A DNA stretch of 64,000 nucleotides from Microbacterium sp. EST19A (lineage in GTDB: Bacteria; Actinomycetota; Actinomycetes; Actinomycetales; Microbacteriaceae): NCBI RefSeq assembly GCF_019969685.1, contig NZ_JAHXYZ010000002.1, positions 1,426,001-1,490,000 of the forward strand, read 5' to 3'. The notes below the pieces were generated by a model. It ran no database searches, had not been told where the DNA came from, and saw only the letters and a list, made by a program, of their open reading frames with translations. Numbering within the stretch: the stretch's first letter is position 1; each line of letters begins with the position of its first letter. Positions 53,937 through 64,000 of the stretch are shown here, piece after piece. Both the position numbers and the translations under genes were made by a program.

Positions 53937-55286
53937 TCAGACCCAGATGTTCCGATCGGCGAGGAAGTTGATCGGGTTGGTGTACTGGCCGTTGATGTAG
54001 ACCTCGAAGTGGAGGTGGCATCCGAACGAGCCGCCGGTGTTCCCGGCGTAGGCGATGACCTGTCCGGCGTTGACCCACTGGCCGTGACGGACGGCGAATC
54101 CGCCGGGCTTGATGTGCGCGTAGCCGGTGCCGACGCCGCTGCCGTGCTGGATGCGGATGTAGTTGCCGTAGCCGCCGTTGGGGCCGACGTAGTCGACGGT
54201 TCCGCCGTAGGCCGCGTAGATCGCGGCGCCGCAGCCGTTGGCGAGGTCGACGCCGTAGTGCCAGCTCGTCGAGCAGCCGCGCGAGTTGCACTGCTGCGAC
54301 CGCGGACCGTAGCCGGAGCTGCGGTGGCCGCCGTGCGGACGCACCCAGCCTCCGGTGCCGGGTGTCCCGCCGCCGCCGCTGTTGCCACCGGCGTTGGCCG
54401 CGGCTTCTGCGGCTTCGCGCTCCCTGCGAGCCTTGGCCTCGGCCTCGACACCGGCCTGGTATCCGGCGACCGTCGTGGCGGTGGTGTCCTTGAGGGCGGC
54501 GAGCTGCGCCTGCATCGTCCCGAGGTACGTCGACTGCTCGTCGAGCGCGGCCTGAGCGGCATCGGCGGCCGCCTGGGCCGCCTGCATCTTCTCTTCCGCG
54601 ATCTGCTGCAGACGGTCGCGCTCGTTGCGGGCGACGACCGCCTGGTCGCTGAGCGACTGCGCGGAGTTGCGGGCGGCGACCGCGTCGTCGTACACCGACT
54701 GGTTGTACTCGAGGAGCTTGTCCATCGTGCCGAGCCGGGCGAGGAGCTGGTCGGCGTTGTCGGCGGATCCGGCGAAGAAGAGCTCGAGGGAGGTGTCGTC
54801 GCCGCCGTTGCGGTAGAGCTGAGCGGCGACCTGTCCGGCCTTGCGCGCGGACGCGTCGGCGACGGCGGCCTGCTCGTCGGCCTTGGACTGCAGCGTCTCG
54901 GCTTCGGCGATCGCGGCGAAGTAGGCCTGCTGTGCGGCGTAGAACTCGTCGGAGGCGACCTGTGCGGCAGCCTGCGTCTCGGCGACCTTCTGCGTCAGCG
55001 CTGCGATGAGGCCTTCGATACGCGTGACCTCGGCAGCCGCAGCCGCCTCGTTCTGCTTGGCCTTCTGCACGTCGTCCCAGCTGGGGTACGACGCGGCGTA
55101 GGCGGCCGAGACTCCGGACGTGAGACCGAACGCGCTGAGCGCGACGACGCTGAGCGCACCGAGACCGAGGGCCCCGCGGCGGCTGATCCCGCTCTTCGCG
55201 AGGGCGCGACTCTCCGTCGGGCTGGGTGCACAGCCGCATTCCGCGGATGCCGCCTCAGCAGCATCCAGCGTGTTCCTGTCGTTCAC
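53937..55286 (-). CDS. M23 family endopeptidase with N-terminal coiled coil
   Basis: A secreted peptidoglycan hydrolase or activator. The N terminus has SRRGALGLGALSVVALSAF, a twin-arginine-like or long Sec signal, followed by a coiled-coil region (about 70-300, rich in Ala, Glu and Gln), a Gly-rich linker, and a LytM domain (330-449) with HYGVD and HLHF, the zinc-binding motifs. This form resembles EnvC/NlpD-like division factors and mycobacterial RipA partners. The GTG at 55286 follows GGAAGGGG. Two CXXXC-like Cys pairs are seen near the catalytic domain. Its exact role in wall growth is not known. Confidence 0.92.
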   Translation of the reverse strand: MNDRNTLDAAEAASAECGCAPSPTESRALAKSGISRRGALGLGALSVVALSAFGLTSGVSAAYAASYPSWDDVQKAKQNEAAAAAEVTRIEGLIAALTQKVAETQAAAQVASDEFYAAQQAYFAAIAEAETLQSKADEQAAVADASARKAGQVAAQLYRNGGDDTSLELFFAGSADNADQLLARLGTMDKLLEYNQSVYDDAVAARNSAQSLSDQAVVARNERDRLQQIAEEKMQAAQAAADAAQAALDEQSTYLGTMQAQLAALKDTTATTVAGYQAGVEAEAKARREREAAEAAANAGGNSGGGGTPGTGGWVRPHGGHRSSGYGPRSQQCNSRGCSTSWHYGVDLANGCGAAIYAAYGGTVDYVGPNGGYGNYIRIQHGSGVGTGYAHIKPGGFAVRHGQWVNAGQVIAYAGNTGGSFGCHLHFEVYINGQYTNPINFLADRNIWV

Positions 55287-55496
55287 TCGGCCCCTTCCGC
55301 CGGTTTCACACATGTCACACTAACAACAACATTCACATCTGCAACAGGGTGAAGATACGGATGCCACGGCACGCCTGACGTGTCCATCGTCCTCCCGATC
55401 AGCCGTTCGACGAAGCCGCCGCGCCCTCGATTCGCGATTTGCTCAGAACATCCCTTATGCTTGAGCGTCGGCAAGGAAGTCCCCCGGGACTGACTC

Positions 55497-59398: not shown

Positions 59399-59761
59399 AT
59401 GGCCCCCGACCGCGCACTCCCGAATCTGCCCTCGAGCGACTTCGACGTCACGCAGCGCTTCTACGAGAGCTTCGGCTTCCGGCCGACGTTCCGCGATGAC
59501 GGCTGGATGATCCTGCGGCGGGGCGACGTCGAGATCGAGTTCTTCCCGCACCCCGACGTCGATCCTCTGACGAGCAGCCACCAGTGCACGATCCGGGTCG
59601 ATGACCTGGACGAGCTGTGGCAGGCGATCCACGCGACGGGCGTGCCCGTCGCCCGCAGCGGCCGACCGCGCCTGCACGAGCCTCGTGTCGAGAGCTCCGG
59701 CCTGCGGATCGGCTACCTCGTCGACACCGACGGCACGCAGCTCACGCTCATCCAGAACTAG
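59399..59761 (+). CDS. Glyoxalase/bleomycin-resistance-fold protein
   Basis: A 120-residue vicinal-oxygen-chelate protein closest in form to Ble-type bleomycin-binding proteins: LPSSDFDVTQRFYESFGFRP at the start, ILRRGDVEIEFFPHP, IRVDDLDELWQAI and RIGYLVDTDGTQLTLIQN at the end. Ble-like proteins bind the drug without metal catalysis, but the ligand here is not known. The start is supported by TAGGAT-6 nt-ATG. Its end overlaps the convergent membrane protein gene by 14 bp. Confidence 0.85.
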   Translation: MAPDRALPNLPSSDFDVTQRFYESFGFRPTFRDDGWMILRRGDVEIEFFPHPDVDPLTSSHQCTIRVDDLDELWQAIHATGVPVARSGRPRLHEPRVESSGLRIGYLVDTDGTQLTLIQN

Positions 59762-62700
59762 GCACGGCGTCCCGCCGCCCCGGCACCCGCCGGCCGACGA
59801 AGAGCAGGCCGAATCCGACCGCGGCCAGCACTATGCCCGCGCCGGCGACGACCCACGCGCTCGACGCGGGGATGTCGAGGTACACGGTGATGCCGAGGAT
59901 CCGCGACAGACCCCACGGGAGCAGACCCATCTGATCGTTCCAGGCGGTGAGGGCTCGTTCGAGTCCGATCGACGCCACGACCGCCGCCGGCACGGCGAGC
60001 CCGGCACCGATCGCGGCGAGCACCGCGCCGGTCGCCCGCCTCGCGCCGATGCGACCGGCGAGCGCCCAGCCGATCGCGACGAACAGCCAGACGAACAGCG
60101 CGAAGGCCACGGCGATGTACAGCGTGCGCCGCAGCGGGTCGGTCCAGAACGCGAACCAGTACCCGCCCGGCCCCGTGAACGAGAGCGCCGCGAGCACGAG
60201 CGCGCAGCGGAGCACCACGACGCCGCCGATCGTGGCGAGCACCGCCCAGCCCCAGCGGCCGCGGAACAGCAGGAGCAGCAGGGCGACGAAGACCGCCCAC
60301 GCCCCGAGGGTGACGGCGAGATGCGTCCACGAGAGGAACGAGGTCTGCACGGCTCGGGTGGCGACCAGCAGCGCGCCCGGAACCAGCCCGAGCAGCACAT
60401 GGTCGGCGCGCAGCATCCCGAGCGTGGATTCCCCCGCCCGCCACGGACGCGTCGCGCTGACCCACGTCGCCCGCGCCGCCATGGCTCCGGGGCGGCGGAC
60501 CAGGCGCGTGCGCGCCGACAGGATGCCGATCAGCACCCACGCCGCGGTGAGCGCCAGCAGACCCCGGGCGAGCCACGCCATCGCGAGGTCGCGGTCGCCG
60601 CGCTCGACGCCCAGCTCCGCGGCGGTGAGGTTGTACGCCGGATGATTTACGTCGCCCTCGTAGGCGGCGACGTGGGCCGCGGCCTGCGCCGTGTAGGCGT
60701 CGCGGGCGGTGCGCCACGCGGTGTAGGACTCCGCCGACCCGGTGTCGTGCCACGCGGCCTGCTGCAGGATCATCGCCCGGTAGGACCCGAGGAGATCGAG
60801 GGTGTCCTGCTCGTACTCGAGGCTGCCGAGGAAATCCTCGCGGAGGCTCTCGTCGCGCCAGGTCGACGGGTCGGTGCCCTCGATCAGCGCACGCATCCGC
60901 TCCACGGTGTCGGAGGCGACAGCGCCGCCCTCCACCGCCTCATCGAACCTGTCGCGGGAGATCGTGTAGACCACGTCGAGCACGGCCGAGTCGCCGGTGA
61001 GGATGTCCCACTCGAAGATCCACATCATGGGCGGAGGTTCGAGCCCGATCGCGGACACGCGCTGCTCGGCGAACGGCGGCAGGTACAGCCCCTGCTCGAT
61101 CGCGGTCCGGGACAGAGCCATCGCCTCGGCGATCGCCTGCACCGTCTCCGGGTCGTCGGAGAACCACTCCCTCGCCCATCCCGCCGTGATCCCTGCCGGA
61201 TCGGCATCCGGATTCCTCGCCAGGTCGACGGCCAGCTGAGAGTTCAGGTCGGCGAGCTGCCAGAAGCCCGCCTTGCCGTAGAGGATCATCGGGCCGGCCC
61301 GCCACGGCCCGCCGTCCTGGGCCCATGCCCAGACGCCCTCGATGCGGTCGTTCGACGCGAGCAGCTCCTGCAGCGCCCAGGCGTACTCCGCCCCGAGATC
61401 GTTGGGGAACGCCCCGTTGTTCTCGAACTCCCGTCGGCTCTGGAGCTCGACGATGCGCCGCTGGTCGCCCTGCTGCAGGGTGTCGTTCAGCGGCAGCCAG
61501 CTGTAGAAGTCCCCCAGCGTGTACTTCGTCGACACGATGAGCGCGGGCGAGTCGATGCCGCCGAGCACCGCCTCGTACGAGTCGGCGTTCGTGTGCATGT
61601 CGCCCACGGCTCCGACGCCCACGCTCCAGGTGCGGAAGATCACCTCGCGCCCGGACTCCTCCGCCTGTCCGGTGAGCGCGGTGAGCATCGCGCGCACCGC
61701 TTCGGGTGTGGTCACGGCCAGCGCCGAGTAGTAGTCCCACCCCTCGACGTCGTACACGCGACCTGCCTCGCCGATGCGGATGAGCACTCCGTCGAGGGCG
61801 GGTTCCGCGGCGTACAGCTCGTCGAGGCCTGTGGCGTAGACGTCCCAGAGCTCCGGCGAGGTGGTGTCGAGCGAGCCGAAGCGGTCGTTGAGGTACGTCT
61901 CGAGCGGAGAGGTGAGCGTGAGCATGTCGGTGCGCAGGAACACCTTCATCCCGAGCTCCTCGGCGCGGTCCCAGAACGGGCCGAAGGCCTCCCGCAGCGC
62001 GAGCGCCTTGGCCACGTGCGTGTCATCGTCCGCATAGACACCGTCGACGCCCTCGAAGGCCACGAACTCGACGAAGCCGGGGAACGCGATGGCGTTGTAT
62101 CCGTCGGCGATGACGCGGCGCAGGTAGTCGTCGTAGTCCTCGTACGCCGCGGCGAGCGCCTGCTCGTCGATGTACGGCGCCTCGGGCAGGAACACATCCG
62201 CGAAGGCCTTGGACGCGTGCGAGTAGTCGGTTCCCGGCAGCCATTCCGCCGGATCGGCCGCGACCCCGACGGCGCCGAGGTCGACCATCCGGAACGGGAG
62301 GCGCGACGTCACCGCGGTCTCGAGGTCGGCGGTGATGTCCTTCCCCTGTCGGATCGCGGCGGCGATGTCGTAGATCCCGCGCACCGCGCCCGCCTCGCCG
62401 GCCTCGATGCGCAGGGCGTCCGGCGTGCCGGTCAGGAGATAGCCTTCGTCGTCGACCGCGCCCGCAAGAGGCTGCACGAGCAGGAGGGTCAGGGTGGCGG
62501 TGCCCACGGTCTCGACCCCGGACAGCGCCGCATCGAGCTCTTCGGCGGCGACGCGCAGCCGCTCCGTTCCGTCGGCGCCGACGACCGTGAGCTGCGGAGG
62601 TGGAACGGATGCCGACACCGACGCGACCGCGCGCGACTCGCCGCCCATCCGCTCGGCGGGCTGCGCCCGGATCCCGAGCGCGTCTCCCACGACCACTCCG

Positions 62701-62798
62701 ACGCCGGCTCCCGCGGCCAGCAGCACGACGACGACGACCAGGGCGAGGGTGCCACGGACGCGTGCCGACTTCGCCCGCACGGCCGTCTTCGCTCGCAT
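59748..62798 (-). CDS. Glycosidase-like ectodomain fused to a polytopic membrane domain
   Basis: A 1016-residue protein. An N-terminal membrane segment (about 15-40) is followed by a GH67N/GH20b-like domain (about 70-150), a TIM-barrel-like domain (about 165-600) with LDGVLIRIGEAGRVYD, VELQSRREFENNG and MMWIFEWDIL, a helical region, and then about seven membrane segments (760-1005). The barrel resembles alpha-glucuronidase-type (GH67/GH115-like) enzymes, but I cannot point to the catalytic residues. A glycosidase fused to so many membrane helices is unusual. The start at 62798 is set by TAGAGT-6 nt-ATG. It could act on a cell-surface or membrane-linked glycan. Confidence 0.72.
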   Translation of the reverse strand: MRAKTAVRAKSARVRGTLALVVVVVLLAAGAGVGVVVGDALGIRAQPAERMGGESRAVASVSASVPPPQLTVVGADGTERLRVAAEELDAALSGVETVGTATLTLLLVQPLAGAVDDEGYLLTGTPDALRIEAGEAGAVRGIYDIAAAIRQGKDITADLETAVTSRLPFRMVDLGAVGVAADPAEWLPGTDYSHASKAFADVFLPEAPYIDEQALAAAYEDYDDYLRRVIADGYNAIAFPGFVEFVAFEGVDGVYADDDTHVAKALALREAFGPFWDRAEELGMKVFLRTDMLTLTSPLETYLNDRFGSLDTTSPELWDVYATGLDELYAAEPALDGVLIRIGEAGRVYDVEGWDYYSALAVTTPEAVRAMLTALTGQAEESGREVIFRTWSVGVGAVGDMHTNADSYEAVLGGIDSPALIVSTKYTLGDFYSWLPLNDTLQQGDQRRIVELQSRREFENNGAFPNDLGAEYAWALQELLASNDRIEGVWAWAQDGGPWRAGPMILYGKAGFWQLADLNSQLAVDLARNPDADPAGITAGWAREWFSDDPETVQAIAEAMALSRTAIEQGLYLPPFAEQRVSAIGLEPPPMMWIFEWDILTGDSAVLDVVYTISRDRFDEAVEGGAVASDTVERMRALIEGTDPSTWRDESLREDFLGSLEYEQDTLDLLGSYRAMILQQAAWHDTGSAESYTAWRTARDAYTAQAAAHVAAYEGDVNHPAYNLTAAELGVERGDRDLAMAWLARGLLALTAAWVLIGILSARTRLVRRPGAMAARATWVSATRPWRAGESTLGMLRADHVLLGLVPGALLVATRAVQTSFLSWTHLAVTLGAWAVFVALLLLLFRGRWGWAVLATIGGVVVLRCALVLAALSFTGPGGYWFAFWTDPLRRTLYIAVAFALFVWLFVAIGWALAGRIGARRATGAVLAAIGAGLAVPAAVVASIGLERALTAWNDQMGLLPWGLSRILGITVYLDIPASSAWVVAGAGIVLAAVGFGLLFVGRRVPGRRDAVPSSG

Positions 62799-62804
62799 GG
62801 AGGA

Positions 62805-62810
62805 ACTCTA
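62805..62810 (-). promoter_or_regulatory. -10 box of the membrane glycosidase-like gene (leaderless)
   Basis: TAGAGT on the minus strand, 6 nt before the ATG at 62798. The spacer is TCCTCC, which is not a ribosome-binding sequence. Confidence 0.55.
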
Positions 62811-62858
62811 TCGACGTCTGGGGACGGTCAGATCCACCGTGTCCGAGCTCTGCGCCGG

Positions 62859-63704
62859 CTAGAGCTCCTCGAGGGCGCGCCGCGCGTCTTCGACCTCGTC
62901 CGCCGCGGCATCCGCCTGCTCTGCGGCCTTCGCCCGCTGCGCCTCGACGTCGGGCTTGTCGGCCTGCACGCGCTCCGCCTCCTTCTGCAGCTTCCCCAGC
63001 CGGGACTCGAGGTCGGCCACCTCGTCGGAAAGCTCCGCGGCCCGCGTCTCCAGTGCGTCCAGCGCCTTGTCCTGCTTCGCGAGCTCGCGCTCCGCCGTGA
63101 CGAGACCCTTCTCGGCGGCGGCGACCCGCTTCTCTGCCTCTCGGCGCACGCGCCGGGCCTGCAGCTCGTCCGCGGGTCGAGCAGGTGCCGGGTCGAGTGC
63201 GGTGATCTCCCCCGCCACGGCCTCCCGGACATCGTCCTCACTGCCCGTGGGCTCGAGCGCCCGCACGAGCCGCCCGGATGCGACGGCCGCGGCGGCACCG
63301 GGGTCGAAGAACGCGGCCGAGATGGTCTGCTCGACCGCTTCGAGGGTCGCCGGCGTGATCCGCTCTCCCCGAGACCCTGCCAGGTCGGCGGCCATCTCGG
63401 CCAGTCTGCGGGTGAGCTGACGGCGCTCCCTGCCGAGCTTCGCCAGCGCCGTGGCATCCAGATCATCCTGTGCCTCGCGGAGTTCCGCGGCGAGCTGCAG
63501 CGCCTGGTCCAGCTGGCCGGAGCGCTCCTGGGCGAAGACGTTCACGACCCATGCGGCGATGGACGGTTTGCGCAGAGCGCGGATCCGGGCGGCGAGCCCG
63601 ACGTCGCCGACGTCTTTCGCACGGGCGTTGCGCGCGGAGACGAAGTCCTCCGGCGGACCGGCGCAGAGGCCGGCGGCGATCTCCTCGAACGTCGGATCGG
63701 GCAT
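62859..63704 (-). CDS. Coiled-coil protein of unknown function
   Basis: A 281-residue protein. The first part (1-170) has the actinobacterial motif RKPSIAAWVVNVFAQER and helices; residues 175-281 are a long coiled coil rich in Ala, Glu and Lys (ELAKQDKALDALETRAAELS). No signal or membrane segment is seen. MPDPTFEE at 63704 is set by TATCGT exactly 6 nt upstream. Function is unknown; a structural or DNA-associated role is possible. Confidence 0.75.
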   Translation of the reverse strand: MPDPTFEEIAAGLCAGPPEDFVSARNARAKDVGDVGLAARIRALRKPSIAAWVVNVFAQERSGQLDQALQLAAELREAQDDLDATALAKLGRERRQLTRRLAEMAADLAGSRGERITPATLEAVEQTISAAFFDPGAAAAVASGRLVRALEPTGSEDDVREAVAGEITALDPAPARPADELQARRVRREAEKRVAAAEKGLVTAERELAKQDKALDALETRAAELSDEVADLESRLGKLQKEAERVQADKPDVEAQRAKAAEQADAAADEVEDARRALEEL

Positions 63705-63710
63705 GCGCCC

Positions 63711-63716
63711 ACGATA
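63711..63716 (-). promoter_or_regulatory. -10 box of the coiled-coil protein gene (leaderless)
   Basis: TATCGT on the minus strand, exactly 6 nt before the ATG at 63704. Confidence 0.5.
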
Positions 63717-63754
63717 CGCGGATGGCCCGGGCACGACGCGGAGGATCGACCCCT

Positions 63755-64000
63755 CTACTCGATGGTGAGGTAGTCCGCGGCGTCCGCGGCGACGAGACTG
63801 CGCGCGCCGAATCCTCCGGTGCCGGTGCCGGGATAGACGAAGATCTCGCCGGCAGGCGTGCGGCCGAGGAGATCGGCCCGCTCGTCACCGTTGTAGTCGA
63901 CGCCGCCGGTCAGAGCGGTGAACTCCAGCCAGCCCGTTCCCGCTGCGCGTCGCGCGCCGAAGCCGTTGACCACTCCGGGGTAGAAGTAGAGCGTGCCCGT
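63755..64000 (-). CDS. FG-GAP/VCBS repeat protein, C-terminal end only
   Basis: The last 81 residues of a protein that begins beyond the window. Repeats with YFYPGVVNGFGARR and IFVYPGTGTGGFGARS, and the calcium-site-like DYNGDERADLLGRTPAGE between them, are typical of FG-GAP/VCBS beta-propeller blades in secreted or surface proteins. The frame is open to the last base; the GTG at 63973 is internal. The catalytic or anchoring part, if any, is not visible. Confidence 0.78.
   Translation of the reverse strand, partial: TGTLYFYPGVVNGFGARRAAGTGWLEFTALTGGVDYNGDERADLLGRTPAGEIFVYPGTGTGGFGARSLVAADAADYLTIE

Follow-up and report, generated by a model that had tools for sequence, protein, structure and literature searches.

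A GH67-like ectodomain joined to a conserved eight-helix membrane bundle in Microbacterium and other Actinomycetota

The gene, its product and its distribution

The DNA analysed here, referred to as the window, is a stretch of 64,000 nucleotides of Microbacterium sp. EST19A (contig NZ_JAHXYZ010000002.1, positions 1,426,001 to 1,490,000), and the genome that bears it is referred to as its own genome. The window carries a gene whose product joins a glycosidase-like ectodomain to a membrane part of eight helices (Table 1). Glycosidases are usually soluble or singly anchored. A preliminary description, made from the letters of the window, had proposed such a fusion in one polypeptide, made up of an N-terminal anchor, a GH67N/GH20b-like domain, an alpha-glucuronidase-like barrel and a membrane domain of about seven C-terminal helices. 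The single frame, the AlphaFold2 model and the alignment of the model with the GH67 structure 1k9d bear out all four parts, the GH67-like barrel being followed by a helical domain.

The AlphaFold2 model was built from 70 rows; its predicted local distance difference test (pLDDT) and predicted template modelling (pTM) scores are given in Table 1. From the N-terminus, the model runs through a helix (residues 2-40), an alpha/beta domain, a barrel and a helical domain to seven C-terminal helices, at about residues 725-760, 797-818, 824-844, 848-872, 888-917, 919-944 and 980-1000. The net charge (K+R minus D+E) is +6 in residues 1-15, which contain six K or R and no D or E, +6 in the 761-796 loop, +3 in residues 1001-1016, and -67 in residues 45-724. 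Because of this charge distribution, and with the model, both ends of the protein would be cytosolic and residues 45-724 would lie outside the cell. An antisense open frame of 1390 aa (59601-63773, plus strand) spans the whole gene and extends beyond it; it is probably an artefact of the high G+C content.

Table 1. Positions of the fusion gene and its parts in the window
Feature	Position	Strand	Residues	Basis and remarks
Whole gene	59748..62798	(-)	1016 aa	ATG start, single open frame; model pLDDT 88.4, pTM 0.88
N-terminal membrane helix	62679..62765	(-)	about 12-40	Model helix 2-40, charge; N-terminus predicted in cytosol
GH67N/GH20b-like alpha/beta domain	62304..62603	(-)	about 66-165	1k9d alignment begins at model residue 66; GH20b matched below threshold in some relatives
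GH67-like (beta/alpha) barrel	61299..62303	(-)	about 166-500	Model, structure and profile comparison
R341, aligned with GH67 Lys of VVKADSEG	61776..61778	(-)	341	Profile alignment; 70/70
E344, predicted general acid	61767..61769	(-)	344	One residue off GH67 Glu of ADSEGQ; 70/70
R389, aligned with GH67 Arg of HWRAF	61632..61634	(-)	389	Profile alignment; 70/70
K425, aligned with GH67 Lys five residues before catalytic Asp	61524..61526	(-)	425	Profile and HMM alignments; 70/70
D430, predicted catalytic base	61509..61511	(-)	430	Aligned with Asp of VK.GP.DF; 70/70
E457, predicted second catalytic carboxylate	61428..61430	(-)	457	Aligned with Glu of GH67 QEYTG motif; 70/70
GH67C-like helical domain	60630..61286	(-)	about 505-723	Pfam GH67C sub-threshold here, passed by 8/10 chosen relatives; 1k9d alignment
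C-terminal membrane bundle, seven helices	59790..60626	(-)	about 725-1003	Models; pLDDT 89.3 alone
Conserved loop with TRPWR	60411..60518	(-)	761-796	Predicted cytosolic side; retained in ectodomain-less relatives
Outer-face loop GPGGYWFAFWTDP..R	60120..60182	(-)	873-893	
Outer-face region E947...WND...PWGLSRILG	59862..59966	(-)	945-979	Eroded in ectodomain-less relatives

The protein has a single match within its own genome. Among 38 related genomes (the own genome included), 15 have a match, of which nine are full-length (50-100% identity) and six comprise the membrane part only; the 23 Microbacterium genomes among them divide into eight with the full-length protein, six with the membrane part only, and nine without any. 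A scan of public genomes confirmed 181 relatives. The nearest, all in Microbacterium, are 93%, 90% and 84% identical to the window protein. The best 80 of the 181, on which the public counts below are based, are all Actinomycetota by title, and their genera include Microbacterium, Agromyces, Leifsonia, Cellulomonas, Cellulosimicrobium, Isoptericola, Nocardioides, Terrabacter, Actinomadura, Micromonospora, Actinoplanes and Catellatospora. The full-length set of 70 rows (A3) consists of the window protein and 69 of these 80 loci, the other 11 being dropped because the called frame fell outside 960-1110 aa.

Among 394 genomes drawn evenly from the class, 12 are carriers, 11 full-length and one membrane-only (G271); two further weak, short matches (G157 and G372) were taken as chance. 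The G271 match (G271:C1:102928-103746) has an internal TAG and is perhaps a decaying copy. The ectodomain profile, run on 396 genomes of the phylum, detected four fusions as well as one canonical GH67, the latter weakly (E 2.7e-4). An ectodomain without the bundle was not found in any of these three sets of genomes (38 related, 394 of the class and 396 of the phylum).

The ectodomain and its predicted active site

The fold of the ectodomain is alpha-glucuronidase-like, as the preliminary description had supposed. The best match of the model in the PDB is the GH67 alpha-glucuronidase 1k9d (Z 21.4, root mean square deviation 3.3, 518 residues aligned; VIA), and the alignment spans model residues 66-700 against 19-679 of the chain, covering all three GH67 domains. 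Foldseek likewise finds a GH67 entry, 1l8n, at E 2e-15. The next matches are to GH138 (Z 17.5), followed by GH84, GH20-type and GH115 entries (Z about 14-16).

The window protein alone has no sequence match in NCBIfam or the PDB. The Pfam cut-off for GH67C is passed by eight of ten chosen relatives, and GH67C is matched at E ≤ 1 by 32 of 33 ectodomains (set A6, 33 of the 70 rows). When an ectodomain profile is compared with PDB sequences, GH67 chains are found at E 0.0009-0.006, over the GH67C part. Canonical GH67 proteins for comparison were drawn from the related genomes and the class genomes; 22 of the 23 loci concerned (L125-L147) were used, L140 being left out because it gave no frame by motif. 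With hhalign, the family matches three canonical actinobacterial GH67 proteins with a probability of 94.8 and E 5e-8 over 396 columns. Against all 22, a loose cut gives 529 columns and the global mode a probability of 97. The hidden Markov model (HMM) alignments to two of them, L136 and L128, cover the K/D/E block and pair K425, D430 and E457 directly.

The six residues of the predicted active site (R341, E344, R389, K425, D430 and E457) are invariant in the 70 rows, and among them are the candidate catalytic carboxylates (D430, E457 and E344), whose absence would have spoken against the proposal of the preliminary description. The GH67 Asp and Glu that match D430 and E457 are presumably the catalytic base pair, and the Glu of ADSEGQ presumably the catalytic acid, while the Lys, Arg and Lys that match R341, R389 and K425 are taken by us to bind the uronate carboxylate. 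Further along the chain, GLEPPPMMWIFEWDILTGDSAVLD (residues 583-608, window 60975-61052) ranks with the best-conserved stretches of the family, with E596, D598 and D603 present in 70/70. An active alpha-uronidase of a GH67-like kind is the most likely identity of the ectodomain. It is called GH67-like, and not GH67, because it misses the curated Pfam cut-offs and its acid lies one residue off.

The membrane bundle and the loss of the ectodomain

Modelled separately, the membrane part, which the preliminary description had set apart from the ectodomain, gives a confident fold (pTM 0.86; pLDDT in Table 1) with no convincing solved match: the best Foldseek E value against the PDB is 0.22, and none of 998 chains reaches Z ≥ 5 (VIA). 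No Pfam or NCBIfam family matches the 70 full-length bundles consistently, and only scattered weak matches are seen, the best of them to Trp_oprn_chp (E 3.6e-5), in four of the 70 members, the window's not being among them. The missing match is not taken as proof of a new fold. Twelve residues of the bundle are identical in 70/70: P785, W786, R815, R864, R891, Y894, E947, W953, N954, D955, W962 and R966. An exosortase identity was considered and set aside; one membrane-only protein (L026:5147-6184) matches the cyanoexosortase model TIGR03763 weakly, with 17.8 of 150 bits, and no exosortase appears among the 14 families that the 70 full-length bundles match at E up to 1.

Six Microbacterium genomes (loci L026-L031) encode uninterrupted proteins of 307-345 aa that consist of the N-terminal helix and the C-terminal bundle. 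A gene named by eye as a pcrA-like helicase lies beside or near all six of these membrane-only genes and several full-length genes; none is found in the 20 kb that surround the window gene. In a bundle tree of 84 rows, made by a quick method with support from the Shimodaira-Hasegawa approximate likelihood ratio test (SH-aLRT) only and with 20 of 79 forks open, the membrane-only rows are nested among full-length rows, with three changes, of which at least two are forced by starred branches. The ectodomain was therefore lost at least twice in Microbacterium, and probably three times. The opposite course, gain of an ectodomain by a membrane protein, was rejected, because the membrane-only rows nest in full-length ones, the deeper branches are full-length, and the membrane-only protein of G003 retains residues of the ectodomain end at the junction.

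Pairwise ratios of nonsynonymous to synonymous substitution rates (dN/dS) are 0.23-0.42 within a clade of four membrane-only proteins, 0.33 for the remaining pair, and 0.17-0.36 among the bundles of five full-length proteins. Therefore, the membrane-only protein is under purifying selection, which is perhaps somewhat relaxed. Because relatives without the ectodomain keep the membrane part, which survives alone after at least two losses, the bundle appears to have a function of its own.

The two faces of the bundle differ in this respect. Positions at least 90% conserved in the full-length rows were scored in the six membrane-only rows, the borders between the cytosolic, membrane and outer parts being set by the author from hydropathy and the model. 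The conserved cells kept are 48/48 on the cytosolic side, 154/180 in the membrane and 118/210 on the outer side, and one stub position is kept in 0/6. Thus, conservation of the outer face of the bundle depends on the ectodomain, and that of the cytosolic side does not.

Gene neighbourhood, possible roles and known systems

In the 80 public loci and the window's own, an operon was sought and no neighbour was kept throughout; the preliminary description had proposed a search of other genomes for the same fusion and its neighbours, and the neighbours prove variable. Microbacterium loci often share the pcrA-like gene or an ABC transporter, and Agromyces loci share nusG or ribosomal-type genes (all named by eye). 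The neighbour families present in at least three genera are ABC ATPase, MFS-like, SDR-like, sugar-permease-like, glycerophosphodiester phosphodiesterase (GDPD) and five others. In the window itself, the next gene but one upstream (63755-64000, minus strand, continuing past the window in L017) encodes, by eye, a secreted M23-type peptidase-like protein with FG-GAP-like repeats, and a second M23-like protein, with coiled coils, is encoded at 53937-55313 on the minus strand.

A GDPD gene lies no more than about 6 kb from the fusion in 12 of the 80 public loci, four each in Microbacterium (two of them near-copies), Agromyces and Cellulomonas (L041, L035, L036, L085, L066, L069, L081, L093, L092, L094, L097 and L100). 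In L041 it is found 92 bases upstream of the fusion on the same strand (L041:6965-7903), and a further GDPD gene is found close to the membrane-only gene of G010 (L027). All six proteins scanned pass the Pfam cut-off for GDPD, and those of Agromyces and Cellulomonas also have a Phytase-like domain. The family has 101 matches in the 38 genomes; because copies per genome are few and chance nearness should be rare, the proximity of GDPD is judged the most suggestive among the shared neighbours.

As to uronate catabolism, neither a GH67M match nor the uronate isomerase UxaC is present in the own genome. UxaC is present in 4/9 full-length carriers, 1/6 membrane-only genomes, 8/23 others, and 3/3 genomes with a canonical GH67. 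These counts, though small, separate the fusion from the feeding enzyme. UDP-sugar dehydrogenases (PF00984) are uninformative, as they occur in 9/9 full-length carriers but also in 35/38 genomes overall.

The architecture, the fold, the conservation and the persistence of the bundle after the ectodomain was lost were computed directly; from them we infer an activity, a substrate and a role for the bundle. The substrate seems to lie at the surface of the membrane, since the ectodomain is placed between helices 1 and 2, its gene has no constant catabolic neighbourhood, and the conservation of the outer face is tied to its presence. A role in the envelope rather than in feeding is favoured because GH67M and UxaC are missing from the own genome, UxaC accompanies fusions less regularly than canonical GH67, and GDPD lies nearby. 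The tentatively preferred reading, to which a little less than an even chance is given, is therefore that of a membrane-embedded GH67-like alpha-uronidase on the outer face of the membrane, with an autonomous bundle, acting on a uronic-acid-capped glycan or glycolipid of the envelope. The ectodomain, held outside the cell, would remove a terminal alpha-linked uronic acid from a membrane-near glycan, with E344 as the acid, D430 and E457 as the base pair, and R341, R389 and K425 gripping the uronate carboxylate. The eight-helix bundle would be a module with its own conserved function, whose outer face, in the full-length protein, would act together with the ectodomain or with the substrate of the latter. 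The most plausible way is that it holds, by the lipid end, a glycolipid or lipid-linked envelope glycan that is capped with uronic acid and perhaps contains glycerophosphate. The preliminary description had suggested that a product or signal passes to the membrane part or that this part deals with a lipid-linked glycan; either may be the case.

Several observations weigh against this reading. The window protein alone scores 12.9 bits against Pfam GH67C (cut-off 27), and GH67N and GH67M are unreported. In local mode, the match of the family to the 22 GH67 proteins (probability 87, E 4e-6) is weaker than that to the three, a strict cut leaves 50 columns, all in the GH67C part, and the best HMM match, to L144, covers the GH67C part only. 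E344 is offset by one residue from the GH67 acid in both profile alignments, and, because GH138, a galacturonidase family, has a similar fold, the uronic acid may be one other than glucuronic acid. Four of the six membrane-only rows belong to one clade, so that the six do not count as independent. The GDPD link was picked post hoc among many families and from related rows, and the two GDPD genes of the own genome are more than 500 kb away from the fusion. Sugar ABC-transporter-like genes (by eye) lie downstream of the fusion in three Microbacterium loci (L039, L043 and L050), as a feeding role would predict. We know of no lipid-linked uronide from Microbacterium, and a search of the open-access literature gave none.

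A further proposal, considered possible but unlikely, is that the bundle is a new type of membrane module acting unaided on a lipid-linked or glycolipid substrate at the outer leaflet, the GH67-like domain being a detachable head that trims the uronic acid cap off the same substrate and the GDPD neighbour acting on its glycerophosphate end. The core would then still function once the head was lost, and its survival beyond the head would be accounted for.

The first rival of the preferred reading, considered improbable, is a hydrolase-coupled transporter, in which the ectodomain would trim a uronic-acid oligosaccharide outside the cell and the bundle would import the product. Such a transporter would fit an ectodomain that was never found without the bundle in the genomes searched, an outer-face conservation tied to the ectodomain, and a bundle that persists alone, as a permease might. 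However, the bundle has no transporter fold match in the PDB, although a missing match proves nothing; it matches no transporter family consistently, and 5/9 fusion genomes, the window's own included, are without UxaC for the use of free uronate.

The retention of all the conserved cytosolic cells without the ectodomain, together with the absence of any constant neighbour, would also agree with an envelope sensor or assembly protein, whose ectodomain would mainly bind a uronic-acid glycan and whose bundle would relay its state to the cytosolic TRPWR loop. This reading ranks next and is improbable, as binding alone would not need the six invariant residues of the predicted active site, and no known signalling domain was found in Pfam or NCBIfam. 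The most doubtful alternative is a nutrient-scavenging alpha-glucuronidase of glucuronoxylan side chains with an unusually bulky anchor, for, although the GH67 fold and residues and the transporter-like genes of the three Microbacterium loci would suit it, such genes do not adjoin the fusion in most loci, UxaC is missing in five of nine carriers but present in all canonical-GH67 genomes, and the supposed anchor shows high conservation and persists under selection where the ectodomain has gone.

One half of the protein is thus of a known kind, GH67-like, and the other half of an unknown kind, a membrane fold for which no solved counterpart was found. The preliminary description knew of no described system of this form, and no record of the same arrangement was found in Pfam, NCBIfam or the open-access literature, a scope outside which most subscription papers fall. 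That a single conserved chain carries both an intact uronidase-like site and a bundle of eight helices points to an unrecorded step in the processing of envelope glycans or glycolipids in actinobacteria, and the natural losses of the ectodomain in Microbacterium provide a built-in experiment that separates the two halves.

Among known systems, the closest are the GH67 enzymes (1k9d, 1l8n and 1gqi), which share all three fold domains over residues 66-700 and the aligned D430, E457, R341, R389 and K425. In contrast to them, the window protein is only 15-18% identical, lies below the Pfam cut-offs, has its predicted acid displaced by one residue, and belongs to the membrane proteins, with eight helices. 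The three canonical GH67 genes read here encode proteins of 644-723 aa that have no membrane part of this sort, and two of these genes (in G010 and G030) lie within about 3 kb of UxaC. The GH138 alpha-galacturonidase BP0997 (6hzg), pectin-targeting by its PDB title and presumably directed at a uronic acid, is the second-best kind of fold match, with 580 residues aligned, but is 12% identical and absent from the sequence matches. The GH115 alpha-glucuronidase (4c90) and the GH84 and GH20 hexosaminidases have a similar start, made up of an alpha/beta domain and a barrel, but with lower Z and mostly higher root mean square deviation, and the catalytic machinery of GH84 and GH20 differs. Finally, the membrane-only Microbacterium proteins share the helix bundle (hhalign 5.6e-83) and resemble several full-length relatives in their kind of locus, but differ in that the ectodomain is gone and the conserved positions of the outer face are eroded.

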